This document shows positions 40,261 through 53,549 of a DNA stretch of 64,000 nt, piece by piece (position 1 is the first letter of the stretch; each line of letters opens with the position of its first letter). A program made the translations under genes and the position numbers. The notes beneath the pieces are model-generated. The model ran no database searches and was not told the origin of the DNA. It worked only from the letters and a program-made list of their open reading frames with translations. This DNA comes from Oehlia diaphana (taxonomy: Eukaryota > Glomeromycota > Glomeromycetes > Glomerales > Glomeraceae), in NCBI GenBank assembly GCA_003833135.1, contig QZLH01000438.1, forward strand, positions 22,519-86,518, given 5' to 3'.

Positions 40261-40823
40261 TTAAATCTTGAATTTCTTTATCTTTTTCCTGATATTGAAT
40301 TCCTTCTTGAATTAAACGATTTTTTTAGTTTTGTCATATTATTCTTTAAACCTTCTGAATTTCTTTATCTTTTTCTTGGATCATGGCATCTATCTCGTTG
40401 ATCATGACATCCTTCTCTTGGATCATGGCATCCTTCTTTGGATTATGATATCATAGGTCATCTTGAACTATTTTATCCTTTTCTCGGACTATATCACTTT
40501 TTTCTTTTTCTCGGATTATGTTGCTCTTTTCTTAGATTAGGGATTACGTTGACTTTTTCTCGGGCTATGTTAACCTTTTCTCGGGCTATGTTTACAATGT
40601 CTCGGGCCATTTTAACCTTTTCTTGGAGTAATTTCTTCCTTTCTTGAACTATGCAATTCTTTTCTCGAATTATTTTAGTCTTTTCTTGGATTAAATTAAT
40701 CTTTTCTCGGACCATATTATCTTGATCATAGACCATCTTATCATTTTCTTGAATTAATCTATCCTTTTCTTGGACTATATTTTCCTTTCTTGGATTATTC
40801 GGATTATAGTATCCTGATGACAT
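40261..40823 (-). pseudogene. Heptad-repeat (REK/QEKD) protein gene, copy 1
   Basis: The ATG at 40823 opens MSSGYYNPNNPRKE, followed by seven-residue repeats (NIVQEKD, LIQENDK, MVREKIN, IIREKNC). A frameshift near 40550 diverts into a wrong frame ending at 40494. In the correct frame the repeats resume as SDIVREK and DKIVQDD, meet a TGA, and then continue as DAMIQEK and DVMINEI to DKEIQKV and TAA near 40350. The repeats would make a long charged coiled coil. It shares its design and its ending with the copies at 59-63 kb, 19 kb away on the same strand. Disabled by one frameshift and one stop. Confidence 0.6.
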
Positions 40824-42310: not shown

Positions 42311-42442
42311 AATGATTTTTATATTAAATAAATCTATTAATCTGATTAAGGTCTTTATAAAATAACATAATGACTGACCAATTCCTAACCAATTAATAAT
42401 GACAATCACTTCTCCCTACTTGTAGAGTTGCCTGTCAAATGC

Positions 42443-43294
42443 TGTGACGGGCGGTTGCCATGGCAAGATGCTGCCACCATCTTGGTCACAAGGGGTAAAG
42501 GTTAGTAAGGTTAGTAATTAACATAACATGAAAAATTAAGTATGAGCTTAGTTTAGTGGATTTTGGTTATGGCGAACTATTGCTCATGATATTTGGGCAT
42601 AGTTTTCCGATCGGTTATGATTTATACATTCATCGATATTAATACATCAACATTTTTTTGTAGTTAATGTAGATAGTTCAAGTCTTTTAGACATTTCGGT
42701 ATTGATAAGGTTCGTTAGTTAGTTCGGGTATTTAAAACATTTTGGTGTTAGTACGTTTCAATGGTTAATGTTAGTATTATCTTTATACTTTGTTCAGTTA
42801 ATTTATGTATACAATTTCATGCATAGTTCCATTAAAAATTTTAGGTTTTATTATTTATAAAGTTCGATATTTATTATTTTTCATAAAAATATTAAAGTAT
42901 TTAAGTTCAATTTTCACTGAGACAATTCTGTCTTCTTGAGACGTTTCTGTCTGAAAAATCTCTAAAAAAAGGTGGGTTTTCTGGTCTATTTTATATCTTC
43001 TGACGTTTTACTAATTTTATGTGATACTAAAATACTATTGGTATTCTAAGTTATGCTACACTAAATGATCTTCATGCTGATCACTAGGTCCTTGATTGAT
43101 CGTCAGTTCGGGTGCTTCTTGTTGATCATCTGGTCAGATGATTTTCCTGTTAAATGATCTTTATGATTATGTAATCATCATTTAGGGTCACGTGATTGTT
43201 GATCATTACGTTATTCTTCAATTAATTTCTGTTGATTTCGGTTTGCTTACTACTTTGTAGTTAATTATATGTTATGGTGAATTCTGGCACTACA
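42443..43294 (-). repeat. 3' LTR
   Basis: On the plus strand it begins tgtgacgggcgg and ends ttctggcactaca. It matches 51997-52868 throughout, lacking two short segments present there (near 52490 and 52620). Divergence is by scattered transitions. Confidence 0.92.
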
Positions 43295-43313
43295 AACTTC
43301 CCCCTCCTTTGAA
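43295..43313 (-). promoter_or_regulatory. Polypurine tract
   Basis: The minus strand reads aaaggagggggaagtt directly before the 3' LTR start (tgtagtgcc). This is the expected second-strand primer site of an LTR element. Confidence 0.8.
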
Positions 43314-43341
43314 AATTTGTGTCCTCACAAATCTCTAAGGG

Positions 43342-44553
43342 TTAGTTTCTATAATAATACTTCTTTAATAATTCACCATTTATCAGTTTTCTTAATATTC
43401 TACCATCCAGTTCTTTTAATTTGTATGATCAATTTAGATCTTCTTCGTGTATAAGGTATGGTCCTCTTCACTTATCATTCAGTTTTCCTGAATGTTAGTT
43501 ATCTCTTGATGCGTTATAAATTAATACTTGATCTCCTATCTGAAATTTTTCTTTCCTTTTCGTTTTGTTATCATGATATTCTTTTTGCTTTCTCTGTGCA
43601 TCAGCGATATTTTCTCTTACTTTATTTCTATTGATTGGTAGTTTTTCCATTAGTTGACTTTCTCTGATGTCTTGTTCGCTGGTATGTTCGTCAATTGGAA
43701 GTCTTGCTTCTCTTCCATATACTAAATAAAATGGTTTGACTTTTGTAGAGCTATGTATTTTGTTCCTATAAGCAAAAAATACGAATGGTATCTTCTCATC
43801 CCAGTTGTTATCTTCCTGCAATTTAGTTAGGGATTCGCATAAAGTTTTGTTAAATCTTTCTACTAATCCATTGGTTTGTGGATGATAGTTTGTTGATAGG
43901 TTGTGTTTTATATCAAATCGTTCCATTAATAAGTGGACTATTTTGTTGTTAAAATGAGTTCCTCTATCGCTTATTATCTTCTGTGGGCATCCATGTCTAC
44001 ATATGATTTCTTCATATATAAACTTTACAACTTCCTCAGCTGTGTTTCTTTTAACTGCTTTAGCTTCTGGCCATTTTGTGAAATAGTCTATTGTTACTAT
44101 AATGTATTAGTTCCTTCTTTTTGTACTCAGTAATGGTCCTACGAAATCTATTCCAATTTGATAAAATGGTTCCTTGATTTTGATCGGTATTAATTCATTC
44201 TTTTCTGAAGGTTTTCCTCTTTTTTGACATTTTTCGCATGATTTCACATATGCTTCTATGTCCTTCATCATTCCTTTCCAATAATACTTTTCCTTGATTT
44301 TATCCTGAGTTGCTTTTATCCCAAAGTGTTCTGACATGTCATGGTCATGAGACATGTACATTAATCCTGTAATTTCATTTGATTTAATAACCCTTAATTC
44401 TTCTCTATTCTTGATTCTATATAGTATTCCTTTATTGGTTTTATATTTTGGATTTTTGGTTATGTTATTGATTATTTCTTGATAATCTTTCTCGTTCATG
44501 TTCGGTGGTGTTTTTCTGACTATTAATTTTTCATCAGGCTTTTGAGCTCTTTA
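43342..44553 (-). pseudogene. Integrase of the Ty3/Gypsy element, with nonsense codons
   Basis: Integrase inserts the cDNA into the host genome. In one minus-strand frame from about 44551: the H2C2 zinc-binding region (MSHDHDMSEHFGIKATQDKI, then VKSCEKCQKRGK), first catalytic Asp in QIGIDFVGPL, an in-frame TAA at 44109-44107, then ITIDYFTKWPEAK-like core sequence, second Asp in KIISDRGTHFNN, and catalytic Glu in HPQTNGLVERFNKTL. Further stops at 43497-43495 and two TGAs interrupt the C-terminal segment (GKLNDK, RGPYLI, KLKELDGRILRKLINGE) before TAA 43344-43342. All DDE residues survive, but the frame holds at least four stops. Confidence 0.9.
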
Positions 44554-45311
44554 TATACTTTTTTCCAACTTTTATTATCATTTTTAATCTTTATACTCCT
44601 ATATTTGAATGTATCTTCATAGATATTCTGATATTTCTTGAACATATTTACCATGTCCATGTAGTCTCTTTTTGTTAATGTTGGGTATGATGTTCGATGG
44701 CCTGTATTACTCTTTTTGGTTTCTCTATTTATGTAATTTTCCCAGCATTGGTCATTTTCTAGAAATATTACAATTGTGTTGTCTATAATATGTTTGTGTT
44801 TGAATATTTCTTGCTCCATCTGGTGATTTCCATAAGGAGTAATTAATCCTCTGTCGAAACTTTGAGTCTTCTGGTAGAAATATTCGCAATAAGGAGATTT
44901 ATCTAATATAATTATGTCCTTATTGTCATAGGTGATGATCCTTTTGTTGATATGCTCGACTACTTGTTTTCTGAACAACCATTCATATTCTTTATTCAGT
45001 GGATTAAACCTTTCATTGTCTTGTCTCCTTCTTTTGAAAGTGTTAAATTTTACCTTCAGATGATTCTTCTGAAGTTCTTTAATCAAATTGTTCACTACTG
45101 TTGACTTTCCTACTCCATTAACTCCATCTATTATTATGAGCTGAGATTCTTTTTCTCTTTTTGTGACCTTCAATAACCATTCTTTGGTGATTCTATCCAG
45201 GTTTAGTAACAAAGCTTCTTTATCATAAAAATATCTTGTTTCATCCTCTTCTTGAGTTGTATCTTTCATCCATGAATTTTCAGTTTTGATGTATTTAGTT
45301 TTTCTTTGCAT
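44523..45311 (-). CDS. Intact P-loop nucleotide kinase (thymidylate-kinase-like) inside the retrotransposon
   Basis: The ORF has 262 codons, ATG at 45311 and TAA at 44525-44523. Residues 58-73 are LIIIDGVNGVGKSTVV: a hydrophobic strand and a Walker A loop (G63-T71). Residues 133-147 read IIILDKSPYCEYFYQ, placed like the DRxxxS/DR(Y/H) element of thymidylate and deoxynucleoside kinases. Near residue 180 IVIFLENDQCWENYINRE looks like the strand-helix leading to the basic lid. Length fits TMK plus a 55-residue N-terminal extension. It lies 46 nt after the RNase H stop and overlaps the upstream part of the integrase frame. Those two share a frame and this ORF uses another. It is the longest unbroken ORF in the element. 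Expected role: phosphorylating dTMP or a related nucleotide to aid reverse transcription. Substrate is inferred. Confidence 0.85.
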   Translation of the reverse strand: MQRKTKYIKTENSWMKDTTQEEDETRYFYDKEALLLNLDRITKEWLLKVTKREKESQLIIIDGVNGVGKSTVVNNLIKELQKNHLKVKFNTFKRRRQDNERFNPLNKEYEWLFRKQVVEHINKRIITYDNKDIIILDKSPYCEYFYQKTQSFDRGLITPYGNHQMEQEIFKHKHIIDNTIVIFLENDQCWENYINRETKKSNTGHRTSYPTLTKRDYMDMVNMFKKYQNIYEDTFKYRSIKIKNDNKSWKKVYKELKSLMKN

Positions 45312-45357
45312 CTTTTACAGAGATGTTATAAAATTTAAAATGATTTAGGCATCCTTT

Positions 45358-45965
45358 TTATACTTTTTCATACTTGAGCCTTGATAAGACATCTGCATTT
45401 TTATTCTCCTTTCCTGCTCGGTGTTTAATTGTGAAGTCGTACTGTTGTAGTTTCATCATCCATCTAGCTCGCTTCCCTTTTGGTATTTGATCTTTCATTA
45501 ATCCTTTTAAGGCTGAGTGATCAGTTATCACTCTAAATTTTCTGTTGATCAGGAATTTGTGGAAATGTTCTATTCCCCATACTATTGCTAAGCATTCTAG
45601 GTCGGTGACTGCATAGTTTGTTTCTGTATTGTTAGTACCTCTGGCTCCATATGCAATTACTACTTCTTTTCCTTCATCATTTTTCTGTGATAATATCACT
45701 CCTAAGCCTTTTGCTGAGGCATCAGTTATTAGTATGAACTCTTTGTTGAAGTCGGGATGTACTAATATTGGTTTTGATGTCAATCTCTCTTTTAGAGTAT
45801 CAAACGCTATTTGTTGCTCTAATCCCCATTTAAACTCTTCGTCTTTTCTGATAAGTTTGGTAATTGGTTTTGCTATTTTTGAGAAATCCTTTATGAATTT
45901 CCTGTAGTAGGAACATAGTCCTAGAAATGATCTTACTTCTCTAACAGTTTGTGGTGCTTTTATTT
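45358..45965 (-). pseudogene. RT connection and RNase H domain
   Basis: The open frame from about 45960 reads KAPQTVREVRSFLGLCSYYR and KFIKDFSKIAKPITKLI (RT thumb/connection). From 45783 come TSKPILVHPDFNKEFIL, TDASAKGLGVILSQK (RNase H first Asp), ETNYAVTDLECLAIVWG (catalytic Glu), FRVITDHSALKGL (Asp) and KENKNADVLSRL. TAA lies at 45360-45358. All catalytic acids seen are intact. It is separated from the RT segment by a frameshift near 45970-45985, where an extra ctacaa-like copy appears, and by a TAA. Confidence 0.9.
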
Positions 45966-45977
45966 GTTAGATCTTCT

Positions 45978-46826
45978 CTAAATTTCTGTTATTAGGTTGT
46001 AGTCTTGTAGACCATTCTCTCCTATTACATGTCCTAAAAATTCGATGTTTCTTTCTGCAAATTTACATTTCTTTAATTTTAATAGTAGGTTGTGATTTTT
46101 AACTTGTTCTAGTACTTTTTCTATATGTACTAAATGCTCTTCAAAACTCTTGGAATATATCATAATGTCGTCGATATATACTTCAACAAATTCTCCTATG
46201 TAGTCTTTCAATACTTTATCCATTAATCTCTGAAATGTTCCAAGGGCATTTTTCAGTTCGAATGGCATTACATTATATTCGAACAGTCCTTGTGAATATA
46301 TAAAGGCTGTTTTCTTTTTATCCTCTTCGGCCATTTCTACTTGATGAAATCCTAAAGCTAAGTCCATACTTGTGAACCATTTTGCAGTTTGGTATTTATC
46401 TAATAGTTCGTTAATTCTCGGTAATGGATATGCATCAGTTTTGGTTATAGCATTGAGCTTTCTATAGTCAATACAAAATTGGTAATTTCCGCTCTTTTTT
46501 CCTGCCAGTGTTACTGGTGATGCCTAGGGGCTAAAAGATTCTCTAATCTTTCCTAATTTTAGGAGTTATTCGATCGCCTTCTTGATGAACTTTCTTTTAT
46601 CTTCTGTTTCCTTATATCTCTTCTACATAATAGGTTTTTAGTTCAGGTCCATTTCTATTCTATGTTCTATTAGATTGGTGGTTCTTATTTTCTCTTGATC
46701 GTATTCAAAGATATCTTTGTGTCTCTTCAACAGATCTTTAATTTTAATTTGTTTCTCAGTTGTAATTTGTCCAGTAAATATTTTATCTTCAAATTTATCG
46801 GTGATATTAGATTTCTTATTTTGCAT
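45978..46826 (-). pseudogene. Reverse transcriptase core, interrupted by stops
   Basis: In one minus-strand frame: FTGQITTEKQIKIKDLLKRH, DIFEYDQEKI, stops near 46638 and 46625, KRYKETEDKRKFIKKAIE, a TAA, LLKLGKIRESFSP, TAG at 46526-46524, ASPVTLAGKKSGNYQFCIDY, YPLPRINELLDKYQ, FTSMDLALGFHQVEM (first Asp), FELKNALGTFQRLMDKVL, and the active site VYIDDIMIYSK. It ends KKCKFAERNIEFLGHVI before the frameshift. The stops replace positions that are usually Trp, Gln or Glu. Confidence 0.92.
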
Positions 46827-46987
46827 CTTTACTGTTTCTCCTGGATTTAGGCCAAGACTATTTATTTTGCTTCGTCATCATCAGACGAATCATCCTCTTG
46901 ATGTGATATGGTAAATATTTCTATTTCTTGGTCTGTTTCCTACTCTGATTCTTCTGACTCATATTCTCTTTCATAGTCTGTTCAGTT

Positions 46988-47413
46988 TTATTTCTTGAAG
47001 TAATATTCAATTAGTATTTCAATAATTTCTTCACCATCTTGTAAGGTTAAGGTTTTGTCTTCAAAGCTGATATTAGCATTCCATTGTTCTAATATATCAT
47101 TTCCTATAATTAATTCACTTTCTTTAGAGTCAATTACTTCTATTGAGGTAGATATTAGCCATTTTTGAACTTCAATTTCTATGTTCGATTTTCCTAATGA
47201 AGCTATTTTATTACCATTTGCCATGGTACATCTGATTTTGCTCTTTTCAGTGATTGGTATTTTTAGTGCCTTTCTTAGGTTGTTGGTCATGACACTTACT
47301 GCAGCTCCTGTGTCAACTATTGCTTTCATTTTCTGACTTTCTAGTTTGATAGTTATTTTCAATGCAGTGGTTATATCTAATTTTTCGGTGTTGTTTGGCA
47401 TATCCTGATTCAA
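46988..47413 (-). CDS. Retroviral-type aspartic protease of the element
   Basis: 141 codons open. MKAIVDTGAAVSVMTNNLRK holds the catalytic DTGA motif, followed by MANGNKIASLGKSNIEIEV, with IIGNDILEQWNANISFED as the flap/ILG-like region near the end. It cleaves Gag-Pol in living elements. It lies between the CCHC/linker part of gag and RT, in a frame different from RT. Confidence 0.88.
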   Translation of the reverse strand: MNQDMPNNTEKLDITTALKITIKLESQKMKAIVDTGAAVSVMTNNLRKALKIPITEKSKIRCTMANGNKIASLGKSNIEIEVQKWLISTSIEVIDSKESELIIGNDILEQWNANISFEDKTLTLQDGEEIIEILIEYYFKK

Positions 47414-47452
47414 CTGGTCATTTTTCTTAATTTCTTTATAGTCCGAGTGTAG

Positions 47453-49682
47453 TCATTGTTGTTCTCTCAAAACTCTCTCATATTTTGTAACTTTGACTAA
47501 TTCTGAGGCTATTTTTGGATTCAATTTAACTAGCTGAGCGAGATTAATATTAGGTCTCATGTTCTTCATGTCTTCCACTATATTGTACTCTTCAGTTCCT
47601 TCTTCAAATTGGTTAGGTCTCCTAATATATTTCCCTTGTCCTTTAGGTACAAATCTTCTTTTGGGTTTTTCATCAATATTCATGTTGTTGTTCGGTGATG
47701 GTCTAAAATCATTTAAGTTTGGTTCATTATTTTCGGTGGTCTTAAATCCTTGAGTTGGGTTTACTTTATTTGCTTTTACTCTTGCTCTAGTTACTCTGTC
47801 TGCAGGATAAAGTTCTCTCTCTTGGTAATATAATTCATACCCATCATCATACTCTTTTTCATGATCATTATATTGATCATAATAATATCCTTCATCATCT
47901 TGTAAATCCATTACATTTACTCTTCTGTTATTGTCAGTGTTGTTACTATTATTACCATAATTATTATAATTACAGGTTCTGGAAGTGTGTCCTGGCTGGT
48001 TACATGTAAAACATGTTAATCCTTCCCAATTTCTCGGTTGTTGTCTTGTTGATAATTTCTTGAGTTTCTGTATGGTTGATTGTTATATTGATTTTGAGGC
48101 TGATTGTAAGGTCAGTTTTGATATGGGTTATTTCTCCTCTCTCTAGTGTTATTTTCAGTTCGTATATTCTTACCTCCAATTTATTGATTTTCATCTCATC
48201 AAATTTCTTTGTTAATTCATCTATATCATCGGTGGTGACATTATTGTTAACTTGTTTTGGTTGTAATTGAGTTGTTTGAATGCTAGAAATAAATATATTG
48301 TGTGTGAGGTCCTTTAGATTTTTTCTCACTCCTGCTTCTACATTTTTAGCCACTCTCATAGCATCTGCTAGATTTCTTGGTAATTGGATTTTAACATGGA
48401 ATTTGATACCTGAGTTTAATCCATTGATGAAGTACATTACTTGCAAAGGTGCTCCTATTGCATTATCTCTATTAGCTTTCTTTACTACTTTCACGAATCT
48501 AGCGTAATAATCAGTTACTGATTCTGTATCCATTTGCTTGATTGTTGTTAATTCTTATACCCATTGCTCTTTCTTACTATCACTAACAAATTTTTCTAAA
48601 AATTTGGTCTTAAAATTCCTAGCTCCTCCATGATGGGTGGCATCTTCCCATTTGGCCATTCCATGATTATCGTTGTCATGAATCTTATCTTGGACCCAAT
48701 CAAGAGCCATATTTCTAAGATATCCATATACTTTTAAAACTGTATTCATATTATCTTCCCAATGGTTTACTGCCATTGCATGTTCGAATAATTCAACCCA
48801 TTGATATGGATCTTTGTCCTCTTTTCTGTGGAATGGAGGTACTTGTAAATGAATCATTTATTCCCTCATGGCTTGTATAGCTTGCTGTTGTTCTGTAATA
48901 ATATTGTCATATTAACAGTGTTCGATTCTGGTGGATTAGTTGGGTCAATTCCATATATTCTATGGAGAAGTTGGGCCATTTCATCTCTAGTTGCGGCCAT
49001 GTTTATTAGTAATATTGGTGGTATAAGTGGTATTTTTGGAGGTTTGATTGGGGTCTTTGGTTTCTTTGTTATTAGTTTCGGTTTTCCTTTTCCTTTATTT
49101 TTATTCAAATCCTTTTCAGATTCTGATGAGAAGGAAGACGAATTTTGAGTGCTTTTATAGGACCCTGGATATCTCCAAAACAGGTCATAAGTTACACTTT
49201 CGGCAGATTGGCCCATTTTTCAGGGGCTCAAAAAATCATTTTTTGTAAATATCACGGCATCCAGTGGTCCAATTTTGATGAACTTTTTTTAAATTGTAGA
49301 GCTAATTGAGGGCTACAAAATAAAAAAAAGTTCATTAAAATTGAATTACTGGATGCTGAAATATTTACAAAAAATGATTTTTTGAGTTTTAGCAAAAAGG
49401 GGTGTTTTTGGCCAAAAGTCCATTATGACCTTTATATTAAATATCTGGGGTCCTGCTTTTATAAGATTTTGAAGACTGATCGTCACTCTGATCATCAGAT
49501 TTTTCTGTGTTCGATTTTTCTCCTGATTCTTCTGAATAATCTCCATGATAATCTTCATCACTAGAGTCAGGTATTTCTTGGGTTTCCCTATAATCACTAG
49601 GTCCTAGAATTACAAGTTCAGGGTGTAACCTGAGTATTACTTCCATCATTTTGTTTCTCTTCTCCTCAGTGATTGGTCTCAA
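47453..49682 (-). pseudogene. Gag capsid/nucleocapsid region, split by a MITE and frameshifts
   Basis: From 49682: MRPITEEKRNKMMEVILRLH, an acidic stretch, and the MITE at 49160-49453. The same frame then continues (QNSSSFSSESEKDLNKNKG), with MAATRDEMAQLLHRIYGID near 49000. Capsid (48857-48000) has FHRKEDKDPYQWVELFEHAM, DTESVTDYYARFVKVVKKAN and MYFINGLNSGIKFHV. The CCHC zinc knuckle CFTCNQPGHTSRTC is at 48013-47972. A linker (47911-47453) has acidic Tyr-rich and basic parts. A TAA lies near 48556 and a frameshift near 48180. Removing the MITE plus one target copy restores the gag frame at that site. Confidence 0.88.
49160..49453. mobile_element. Foldback MITE, 294 bp, with 10-bp target duplication
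   Basis: Ends are ggaccc and gggtcc. The two halves are inverted repeats of roughly 130 bp: left ...caaaaaatcattttttgtaa at about 49223, and right, after its inversion, the same word, with gcatccagt in both arms. The ten bases tgcttttata precede (49150-49159) and follow (49454-49463) the element exactly. Long terminal inverted repeats with 9-11 bp target duplications are typical of Mutator-like (MULE) non-autonomous elements. It has no coding capacity. Confidence 0.88.
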
Positions 49683-49810
49683 TTTCTCATATACTCTTCC
49701 TATACTTGGTTATATTTTGGTAACTCATAGCAGAATTTAGGATCTATCAGGGAATATACTTCATTTATTTCCTCTCTAGTTAACTCTAAATTTTCGTTTA
49801 ACAGGTTTTG

Positions 49811-50945
49811 TTAGGTTATTGTTATTAGTTCTTGATACTTGCTATTGGTGTTTTTAGTCCTTTGCCATTTCTCTTTCTCTTTTTCCATTTCGCTGTATTC
49901 AGCTTCACCATCTGATTCTTTCCAATTTTTGGATAACCAATTATTTAGGCTCATCTCTAAAGTTTCGTCATCTTCATTTGCATGTTTTTGGTATTCCTCT
50001 ATGAATCCTTCTTTCAATATGTGTTTGGTCAAAAACCTCAGTATTGTCCTGAGTCTAGTTATTTCTCCTTCGTCTATTTCTATTCTTTTTTTAGCTAATT
50101 GGCGTGTTATGGCTTTATGGAAATTTACTTCTCCTGAGCTACTATCCTTGGGGCTACCTGTTTTTGGTATTATTACAGATGACTTTGAGCTTAAACTTAT
50201 GCTTAAGTTTACTCTCTTTTGGTTAAATCCTCTTTTGTTTATAAACTTCTGTATTATTACATCTGTTAAATCTTCATTTATCTAAGGTTTTGGGTATCTC
50301 CATCTATCCATTTCATAGGTTATGATTCCTTGGAACTTTTGGACTTTAGTTCAGTTTTGTTCATCAGCTATTGTTTCTTCTAAATGTATTAATTCTTTAA
50401 ACTGTTTCAATGTCTTGCCTTCATTTACTATTTTCTTTACTGTGGTCTTAATTTTGTACCATAATAAGAATTTCTGAAACCTCTCTTGAAGGTCTTCATT
50501 TGTGATAGTATAGCCATATTCTAATAGTTCCTGTCTGGTGTCTATTTTTTCTTTTACTTGAGTTTGATTATGATTAAAAACTGCTTTTCCATCTTCCATT
50601 TTCAGACATGTTTCTAGGATTATGTTTATTATCTCATATAATCCTTCATGACCATATAAAGGTCTTCATTTTTCTTGTTAGGTTTTCTCCATCCAATCCT
50701 AGCATTCCATAAAATGCTTTTACAGTCCTTTCGGTGAATTTGGTCTCCATGACTTGTGGTACTAACTCTATGTATATATCCCAGAATGATAAGAACGCTG
50801 GTATCTTAGTTTCTTGGACTGGATAACATTTTTCACAAAACAAATCGCTAGGAGATTCTCTCTCATTCCCTTTTTCATGATATTCTGTGATGTGGTTCAC
50901 CTTGTTGTTGTACCATCTTCATAAATATCAGACATTGAGTTTAAG
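49811..50945 (-). pseudogene. N-terminal gag-side ORF of the element, fragmented
   Basis: The minus strand begins MSDIYED near 50935, then a frame change to WYNNKVNHITEYHEKGNERE and SDLFCEKCYPVQETKIPAFL (to 50646). Next is an ATG frame at 50599-50351 (MEDGKAVFNHNQTQVKEKID), a TAG near 50285, and NLSISLSSKSSVIIP running on to 49811 (KHILKEGFIEEYQKHANEDD). The region is acidic and helical. No catalytic motif was seen. It is probably the extended N-terminal part of Gag, or a separate first ORF. Confidence 0.6.
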
Positions 50946-51980
50946 ACTGATTTTTCAAAAATAGATCTTGAAAAAATCGTAATCATCATAGGTCTTAAAT
51001 AATTTTCGTTAGTTGTACAAACTATTTATTAGTCGTATATTATCAGTTTTGGTGTTATTAGATATTAATTAATTATTGTAAAGGTACTTTTGAGTGATGA
51101 ACTTTCACTAATCACAATGCTAGTACTTGGGTTACATCCATTAAATTAGTCTATAAAATTAAGTGGGTGGTAAAATACTTCGCATAGCTTACTTTCGCTA
51201 GTCACGATGCTAGTGCTTGGGTTCGCTAAGAAAATATTAAACAGAATTAGGGTAGAGGGGTTATAATACTTTTTTACTTACAGTCTCATCAGACGAAATG
51301 ATTTCTATAAAAATAAAATATGCTGGACTATAGCTCCCGCTAAGCTTTTGGGATATAGTGCTCATAACACTCTTGGTATTTAGATACGTTACCCTGGTTG
51401 GCTTTTCATGGGATATAGTGCCTGTAACACTGAGGGTTTTTAGTTTACCTTCACCTACAACTCTCTATTACGTACAATCTTGTCAGATACCAAACCAATT
51501 GGAATTAGTCTAATCTCTTCAGATAACACGTACTATTCCGCATTTGGATACTAAAAGAAATTTCTTAAAGATTTTTGCACTAAGTATATGCCGATTTTAA
51601 TACATAATGAATGGGATGCGGTTATTATTTAGAGTAGCTAATTCTAAATAATAGGGTTTTTCTAAAATTCTAGTCTAGAACTCCCCCTGCACCTTGATTA
51701 GCCGTCTTTTACATGTATCGTATTACTTCAGTAATCTACCAATATGGGGTGATCACACAGGATACTTTCAATACCTTTTCATATGACATGGTAATATGGT
51801 AGTCAAAGTACAACAAAAAGAAAACTATACTAAAAATTTCAGAAGTATTTTTCACGAGACTAATTAAGATGCTCGTTAAGGTTTTTACTGATGCATGGAA
51901 AATTAAAGTTCGCCAGACTGATTAAAATGCTAGCTTGGAATGAGTGACTGCTATATGAAGATAAAGCCAAAAAGATTTCT
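50946..51980 (-). other. 5' leader of the retrotransposon
   Basis: Untranslated region between the primer-binding site and gag. It holds two imperfect direct repeats: ttcactaatcacaatgctag / tttcgctagtcacgatgcta (about 51105 and 51192), and gggatatagtgctcataacac / gggatatagtgcctgtaaca (about 51350 and 51410). It may be a packaging or dimerisation region. Confidence 0.5.
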
Positions 51981-51994
51981 CAGAGCATGCACCA
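51981..51994 (-). promoter_or_regulatory. Primer-binding site
   Basis: On the minus strand tggtgcatgctctg starts two bases after the 5' LTR end. It has the TGG expected for pairing with a tRNA 3' CCA. The tRNA was not identified. Confidence 0.65.
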
Positions 51995-51996
51995 TT

Positions 51997-52868
51997 TGTG
52001 ACGGGCGGTTATCACAGCAAGATGCTGCCACTATCTTGGTCACAAGGGGTAAAGGTTAGTAATTAATATAACATGAAAAATTAAGTATGAGTTTGGTTTA
52101 GTGGATTTTGGTTATAGCGAACTATTGCTCATAATATTTGGGCATAGTTTTCCGATCAGTTATGATTTATACATTTATCAATATTAATACATCAACATTT
52201 TTTTGTAGTTAATGTAGATAGTTCAGATCTTTTAGACATTTTGGTATTGATAAGGTTCACTAGTTAGTTCAGGTATTTAAAATATTTTGGTGTTAGTACG
52301 TTTCGATGGTTAATGTTAATATTATCTTTATAATTTGTTCGGTTAATTTATGTATACAATTTCATGCATAGTTCTATTAAAAATTTTAGGTTTTATTATT
52401 TATAAAGTTCAATCTTTATTATTTTTCATAAAAATATTAAAGTATTTAAATTCGATTTTTGCTGAGACAATTCTGTCTTCTTGAGACATTCCTGTTTTCT
52501 TGAAACGTTTCTGTCTAAAAAATCTCTAAAAAAAGGTAGATTTTCTGGTCTATTTTATATCTTCTGACATTTCACTAATTTTATGTGATACTAAAATACT
52601 ATTGGTATTCTAAGTTACAATTATTTATGCTACACTAAATGATCTTTATGCGGATCACTAGGTCCTTGATTGATCGTCAGTTCAGGTGCTTCTTATTGAT
52701 CATCTGGTCAGATGATTTTCCTATTAAATAATCTTTATGATTATGTAATCATCATTTGGAGTCACGTGATTGTTGATTATTACGTTGTTCTTCAATTAAT
52801 TTCTGTTGATTTTGGTTTGCTTACCACTTTGTGGTTAATTATATGTTATGGTAAATTCTGGCACTACA
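51997..52868 (-). repeat. 5' LTR
   Basis: Matches 42443-43294, with extra segments near 52490 (cctgttttcttgaaac) and near 52620 (caattattta). Its minus-strand start is tgtagtgcc and its end gacgggcggt-type reversed (cgtcaca). Confidence 0.92.
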
Positions 52869-53549
52869 ACGCAAACTCTGAAAAAGCGTTTAAGCAGAAT
52901 ATCTCATCATCCAGTGATCATAAAAGGATGAAACCATTACCATTCAAATCATCTCAATGAGACATGTTAAATGGTGTCTAAATCATATTTCTAGGTTCGA
53001 TAGATAACTGGCAATTATTGAATTATTATCAATTAGGTTTGCCGATATAATTTTTTTCTATTAATCAGTCATCGGTCATGTCAGCAATATTAGTGGTGAG
53101 ATTTTTTATACTATGATATTATAATATAAATTATTAATATGAAATAGTCTTTAGATATATAATATTTATATAATATTTAAATTTGGTCAAATTAGTTCGA
53201 TTAATTAAAATTCATTAATTTTTAAATTATAATTCTGGCTGAAATTTTCTTAATTCTGGCCAAATTCATAATGCCAGCCTAAATTTAGTTAAAATTGGAA
53301 TTTTCAGGTCAAAGGTAACACCATATTTATGCAATATAACACATTTTCCAACAATAGTAAACATGTTCGTTCAAGGTTTGAAAAATATTTTTATAACTTT
53401 TAAAAATCAAGAACTTCGCTTTATTCAGTTGCATCTGGCTGAGGAAAGTTGTTAAAAATACGCTATTTTAATATATTAAATTAATAAACTTTTAAAACCA
53501 ACTTTTTAAACTTTTTTTTTTATAAATTATTATATCAGAACAAATCAAT
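52869..53549. other. Spacer between retrotransposon and transposase-like gene
   Basis: AT-rich, with ttctggccaaattcataatgccagcct near 53256-53282, one of several GGCC/AATGCC words in the window. No TIR for the neighbouring gene was established. Confidence 0.4.

Follow-up and report, generated by a model that had tools for sequence, protein, structure and literature searches.

Why should a long terminal repeat (LTR) retrotransposon of a fungus carry, between its RNase H and its integrase, an intact open reading frame (ORF) that resembles a nucleotide kinase? The question arises from a 64,000-nucleotide stretch of the Oehlia diaphana genome (contig QZLH01000438.1), referred to below as the window, in which an initial annotation had pointed out such an ORF within a Ty3/Gypsy element and read it as a captured thymidylate kinase (TMK) or deoxynucleoside kinase. 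Our best explanation, held with moderate confidence, is that a Ty3/Gypsy lineage of the Glomeraceae, which are arbuscular mycorrhizal fungi, took up in pol a P-loop kinase of the TMK/deoxynucleoside kinase fold that would serve the supply of deoxynucleoside triphosphates (dNTPs). It builds on the position of the domain, its recurrence, its predicted fold, its conserved motifs, its low dN/dS and its co-inheritance with RNase H as judged from sequence distances, each established below.

The 262-codon ORF was confirmed on the minus strand at 44523..45311, with GVNGVGKST at residues 63-71 and DKSPYCEYFYQ at residues 137-147, and matches to PF17917 and PF17921 confirmed that RNase H and integrase flank it. 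We estimate that an open frame of this length in DNA of ~ 31% GC is far beyond chance. A first protein search returned 67 homologues at E ≤ 0.01, which marks the ORF as coding; these homologues, together with its recurrence in the genome, rule out a chance ORF. It had also been singled out as the longest unbroken frame of the element and is indeed intact, but intactness within a broken copy proves little, since with few breaks over ~ 4.6 kb of pol an unbroken 0.8 kb would be expected fairly often, by our estimate.

In the 108.8-Mb source genome, 21 kinase matches were found and counted as 15 places, with RNase H upstream at 10, integrase downstream at 13 and both at 8, always in the same order. 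A private insertion, in which no other copy of the element would carry the ORF, is ruled out by these 15 places and by the database homologues. Two of the places (L035 and L026, C2:147.7-156.5 kb) hold complementary kinase halves ~ 8.7 kb apart, probably one copy split by a later insertion, and the count is 14 if they are so joined. A separate search for integrase gave 50 matches, and the upstream stretches of ten of these were examined for kinase. One (L045) retained a kinase remnant, and at L037 RNase H was followed by ~ 0.87 kb without a kinase match and then by integrase. At L036 and L039-L042 neither RNase H nor kinase was found upstream of integrase, although two of these stretches are short or made up partly of N.

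Selection was assessed by pairwise NG86 comparison of copies. Kinase dN/dS (omega) ranged from 0.05 to 0.41 where dS was finite, many dS values being saturated, and the close pairs carry the argument: omega was 0.22 for the kinase, 0.17 for reverse transcriptase (RT) and 0.13 for RNase H between L022 and L024, 0.14, 0.07 and 0.08, respectively, between L023 and L025, and 0.15 for the kinase between L022 and L034. Values near 1 across copies, which would have spoken against a captured enzyme, were thus not found; the domain is kept in many copies under purifying selection, as fits an accessory enzyme. That it is a functionless passenger, captured by chance and spread by copying, is most improbable. 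The age of the window copy and the broken state of most kinase copies in the source genome would suit a passenger, but the low dN/dS strongly disfavours one, and the conserved motifs, the presence in several species and the deep divergence likewise argue against it.

Distances between kinase domains followed those between RNase H domains (Mantel r 0.78 over 22 rows, which include near-identical Rhizophagus irregularis copies; r 0.885 over 21 rows with P0080, whose RNase H and kinase are of mixed lineage, dropped), indicating that the two domains have been inherited together. An earlier Mantel test (24 rows, r 0.34) had used pieces of RT-RNase H; we judged it to be distorted by chimaeras and spliced gene models and redid it on RNase H alone. 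The mosaic P0080, from R. irregularis, has RNase H from one lineage and most of its kinase from another. The change-over lies close to the Walker A loop and reflects either recombination of two elements or an artefact of the gene model; P0084 and P0099 begin in the same way.

The best structure matches of the fold predicted for residues 55-262 of the window protein (P0001) were dTMP and deoxynucleoside kinases, so that the predicted structure has the TMK fold and also the deoxynucleoside kinase fold. This supports a nucleotide-kinase fold, and the domain's presence, its predicted fold and its recurrence are firmly established. With the TMK (PF02223) and deoxynucleoside kinase (PF01712) families P0001 shares the predicted fold, the P-loop and a strand-3 Asp motif; it differs from them in its 9-15% identity in the structure alignments listed, its scores below the curated cut-offs, a 55-residue N-terminal extension and its encoding by a retrotransposon. 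Conservation extends beyond the P-loop to strand-3 and LID residues.

A deoxynucleoside kinase, salvaging thymidine, deoxycytidine and the like, rather than a monophosphate kinase, is in our view unlikely. In its favour, dCK/dGK fold scores tie with those of TMK, the top Foldseek match is a deoxyadenosine kinase, and PF01712 aligned over positions 1-200 of 203 (E 0.0012), but PF02223 matches 23 of 26 members against two of 26 for PF01712 at E ≤ 0.001, and both the P-loop (GVDGxGK[ST]) and the basic loop that follows strand 2 (NTFKRRR) look TMK-like to us. Deoxynucleoside kinases carry a catalytic Glu at the loop after strand 2. It is quite unlikely, too, that the P-loop domain acts outside nucleotide metabolism, whether in nucleic-acid 5' phosphorylation, in ATP-dependent assembly or as a structural spacer that keeps RNase H and integrase apart. 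Many P-loop families are matched about equally by profiles, and the lack of relatives found outside elements suggests long separate evolution; against such a role stand the structure matches over residues 55-262 and the conserved strand-3 and LID residues.

Several findings weigh against a selected enzyme of the TMK/deoxynucleoside kinase fold. P0001 scored 23.9 with Pfam TMK (cut-off 27, exceeded by its relative P0078 at 30.2), 19.1 with Pfam dNK (cut-off 27) and 24.1 with NCBIfam dTMP kinase (TIGR00041, cut-off 83.25), and lay narrowly above the cut-offs of two general P-loop families, AAA_14 (27.4 vs 27) and NPHP3_N (26.3 vs 24.8). Profile searches therefore do not place the ORF outside nucleotide kinases, an outcome that the initial annotation had allowed for, but they exclude this weakly, and since the profile scores fall short the assignment depends on the fold, where TMK and deoxynucleoside kinase scores are tied. 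At the P-loop position where 70 of 73 members have Asp, the window copy and L022 have Asn. A possible origin from host TMK was examined with the host gene at C598: profile comparison matched one exon of it at the P-loop only (probability 84, 43 columns), and the exon gave no significant match in one-to-one BLASTP. Kinase omega in the close pairs, far under 1, is slightly over that of RT and RNase H, and the saturated dS values and near-identical Mantel rows have to be counted here as well. In most comparisons among the L022-L035 copies and the window, integrase omega (0.15-0.69) is higher than the RT, RNase H and kinase values for that pair; relaxed selection, recombination and a mapping artefact are candidate causes. 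Finally, no kinase lies between RNase H and integrase in L038, L043 and L044, and related elements may be able to do without it; an RNase H tree aimed at kinase gain versus loss was too poorly resolved.

A second protein search, aimed at polyproteins, yielded 38 proteins, some of them common to the first. When 5.77 billion proteins were searched with a profile, 103 matched at E ≤ 10, most common to the earlier searches, of which 102 had E ≤ 1.4e-19 and the next 6.1, with nothing significant outside the kinase family. Records with an organism name all came from R. irregularis, R. clarus, R. diaphanus or Glomus cerebriforme, and the rest carry none. Two R. diaphanus proteins are not independent relatives, given the high share of exact 15-residue words that they have in common with source copies (213 of 254 for P0067 and L022, 94 of 108 for P0128 and L028); few such words are common to the source copies and P0007 (G. 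cerebriforme), P0074 or P0078 (both R. irregularis). By this comparison the source genome is probably that of R. diaphanus or of a very close relative. Motif and tblastn scans of genome_contigs and viral_contigs, reaching close relatives only, returned no prokaryotic or viral relative and so lend no support to a source of either kind. One distant member (P0116, metagenome, 393 aa, 44% identity, on a contig of 6198 bases) has a NUDIX domain (PF00293, 24.8 bits, above cut-off) ahead of the kinase.

How the kinase is expressed differs among copies. The initial annotation had RNase H and integrase in one frame and the kinase in another, which holds for the window (frames 1, 1 and 2, respectively). 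As a general design, a separate kinase frame is ruled out: at seven of the ten places that have RNase H (L022-L025, L029, L030, L032) RNase H and the adjoining part of the kinase form one stop-free frame, the exceptions being the window, L033 and L035. R. irregularis predicted proteins P0071-P0076 and metagenome proteins P0002 and P0077 likewise have RNase H fused to the kinase, usually with RT. Records beginning with their own Met at about the same place form a metagenome clade (P0009, P0013-P0016, P0018, P0024, P0026, P0030) together with P0041 of R. clarus, as judged from the starts of protein records rather than from DNA. The P0001 and P0078 records also begin with Met at about that position, and a tree of the kinase places the window copy with P0078 (98/92) among the fused rows, the own-Met records being a separate clade.

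Integrase usually has a conserved start of its own, M-x-E/K-x-x-Y. With a pattern permitting Met or Ile, a scan of 16 loci found Met in 11 (window, L022-L026, L028, L034, L038-L040) and Ile in two (L029, L030), while three were unmatched (MDEEEYKYL in L027, MDEQLYNEL or MNEQLYNEL in L043 and L044). The distance and frame from kinase stop to integrase vary, with 2 nt in L025 and 23 nt to the integrase ATG in the window, and in L030 the C-terminus of the kinase, which has a frame break further up, continues in frame into integrase. Small ORFs occupy this gap in some copies: one of 48 aa overlaps the integrase ATG in L022 (6577-6723) and in L024 (5852-5998), where its start also overlaps the kinase stop, a coiled-coil-like one of 84 aa in L023 (6824-7078) overlaps the integrase ATG, and decayed ones occur in L026, L028, L029 and L034. 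In L043 and L044, which have no kinase, the end of the RNase H frame overlaps the start of integrase (ATGGATGA in L043), and a separate integrase ORF may on that account predate the kinase. From these arrangements we infer that pol may be read as a chain of ORFs by coupled termination-reinitiation. Splicing across the kinase-integrase junction is the alternative, presupposed in gene models such as P0078.

On the explanation favoured here, the kinase would be translated within the RT-RNase H polyprotein or, for some members, from a separate ORF immediately downstream, and would be packaged with RT in the particle. There it would phosphorylate deoxynucleoside monophosphates, most likely in a dTMP-like manner, and reverse transcription in non-dividing hyphae or spores would thereby not be held back by dNTP supply; such a substrate and use are plausible. 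We put forward only tentatively the fuller proposal of a Glomeromycotina-specific Ty3/Gypsy group in which an active deoxynucleoside monophosphate kinase within the RT-RNase H polyprotein would provide a particle-borne step of dNTP synthesis, and in which pol would be a chain of ORFs, with integrase begun by coupled termination-reinitiation at an ATG of its own that lies close to the preceding stop or overlaps it.

Captured enzymes have precedents. Fungal Gypsy elements with dUTPases include the basidiomycete PosPlaTy3 and elements of Tuber and Phanerochaete, the enzyme being reported at either terminus of Pol (N or C) or from the stretch between PR and RT, and assumed to help replication in non-dividing cells (an assumption cited in PMC2864245). 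The bdelloid elements Juno, Vesta and TelKA also carry a dUTPase, and some vertebrate retroviral dUTPases lie between RT and IN (PMC5408684). The fungal and bdelloid elements share with the present one a nucleotide-pool enzyme inside the pol of Gypsy-type or retrovirus-like elements; here, however, the enzyme is a kinase in the RNase H-integrase gap, whereas the fungal dUTPases sit elsewhere in Pol, and the retroviruses, similar in pol position, differ in enzyme and fold and have env. An orchid Gypsy lineage (PMC9289625) also keeps an enzyme domain, but this is an m6A RNA demethylase (2-ODD) in an additional ORF, and not a nucleotide kinase. No retrotransposon-borne kinase appeared among the matches listed in a literature search of titles and abstract starts (subscription journals, most preprints and supplements lying outside it), and 'thymidylate' does not occur in the available main text of two R. 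irregularis transposable element papers (PMC8647823, PMC11075540). The claim that no Ty3/Gypsy clade with this domain has been described thus stands for the literature searched, and we therefore call the captured nucleotide-pool enzyme a known kind and a kinase in the RNase H-integrase gap new.

If the explanation is true, a nucleotide kinase carried in pol would give retroelements a second means, distinct from dUTPase, of coping with low dNTP supply, in fungi with largely non-dividing hyphae and repeat-rich genomes, and limitation of reverse transcription by dNTP pools would become directly testable in them. It would also explain why some pieces bear the name thymidylate kinase in database records: these are parts of transposons rather than enzymes of the host. 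A second testable oddity of pol expression is the separate start of integrase.

The window element itself is laid out as follows.

42443-52868, minus strand: whole Ty3/Gypsy element, 10.4-kb
51997..52868, minus strand: 5' LTR, pairing with the 3' LTR, TG...CA ends
51979..51994, minus strand: putative primer-binding site TGGTGCATGCTCTGAG, 2 nt past the 5' LTR, read from sequence
48555..48857, minus strand: gag piece, an ORF assigned by position, no Pfam match above cut-off
48000..48533, minus strand: gag piece, weak Retrotrans_gag (PF03732, E 0.0066, under cut-off)
46988..47413, minus strand: aspartic protease (PF13975, E 1e-11)
45978..46367, minus strand: RT piece (PF00078, E 2.1e-26)
45358..45783, minus strand: RNase H (PF17917, E 1.6e-35)
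44523..45311, minus strand: nucleotide-kinase-like ORF P0001, 262 aa (ORF, profiles, homologues, predicted fold)
44107..44499, minus strand: integrase H2C2 zinc-binding part (PF17921, E 9.9e-21), start common to relatives
43495..43926, minus strand: integrase core piece (PF13683, E 3.1e-06)
43297..43310, minus strand: polypurine tract AAAGGAGGGGGAAG, read from sequence
42443..43294, minus strand: 3' LTR, paired with the 5' LTR

Protease, RT, RNase H, the kinase and integrase follow in order on one strand, and paired TG..CA LTRs, a putative primer-binding site and a polypurine tract are all present; domain order and LTRs bear out the original assignment, and the layout, kinase aside, is Ty3/Gypsy. 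Integrase was matched by PF17921, PF09337 and rve_3 in the window and by the rve core in P0078. The two LTRs are 90.2% identical, and with 48 mismatches over 882 columns the copy is old; several of its pol domains carry breaks. An imperfect 4-bp target duplication surrounds it (ATGC at 42439-42442, ACGC at 52869-52872, one mismatch). An 84-nt inverted repeat (49212-49401, 81% complementary, 22 nt between the arms) lies within the element, 5' to the gag pieces, and at 40494-40823 on the minus strand the window holds an ORF of imperfect 21-bp (7-residue) repeats that is coiled-coil-like (REKxxxxxEK).
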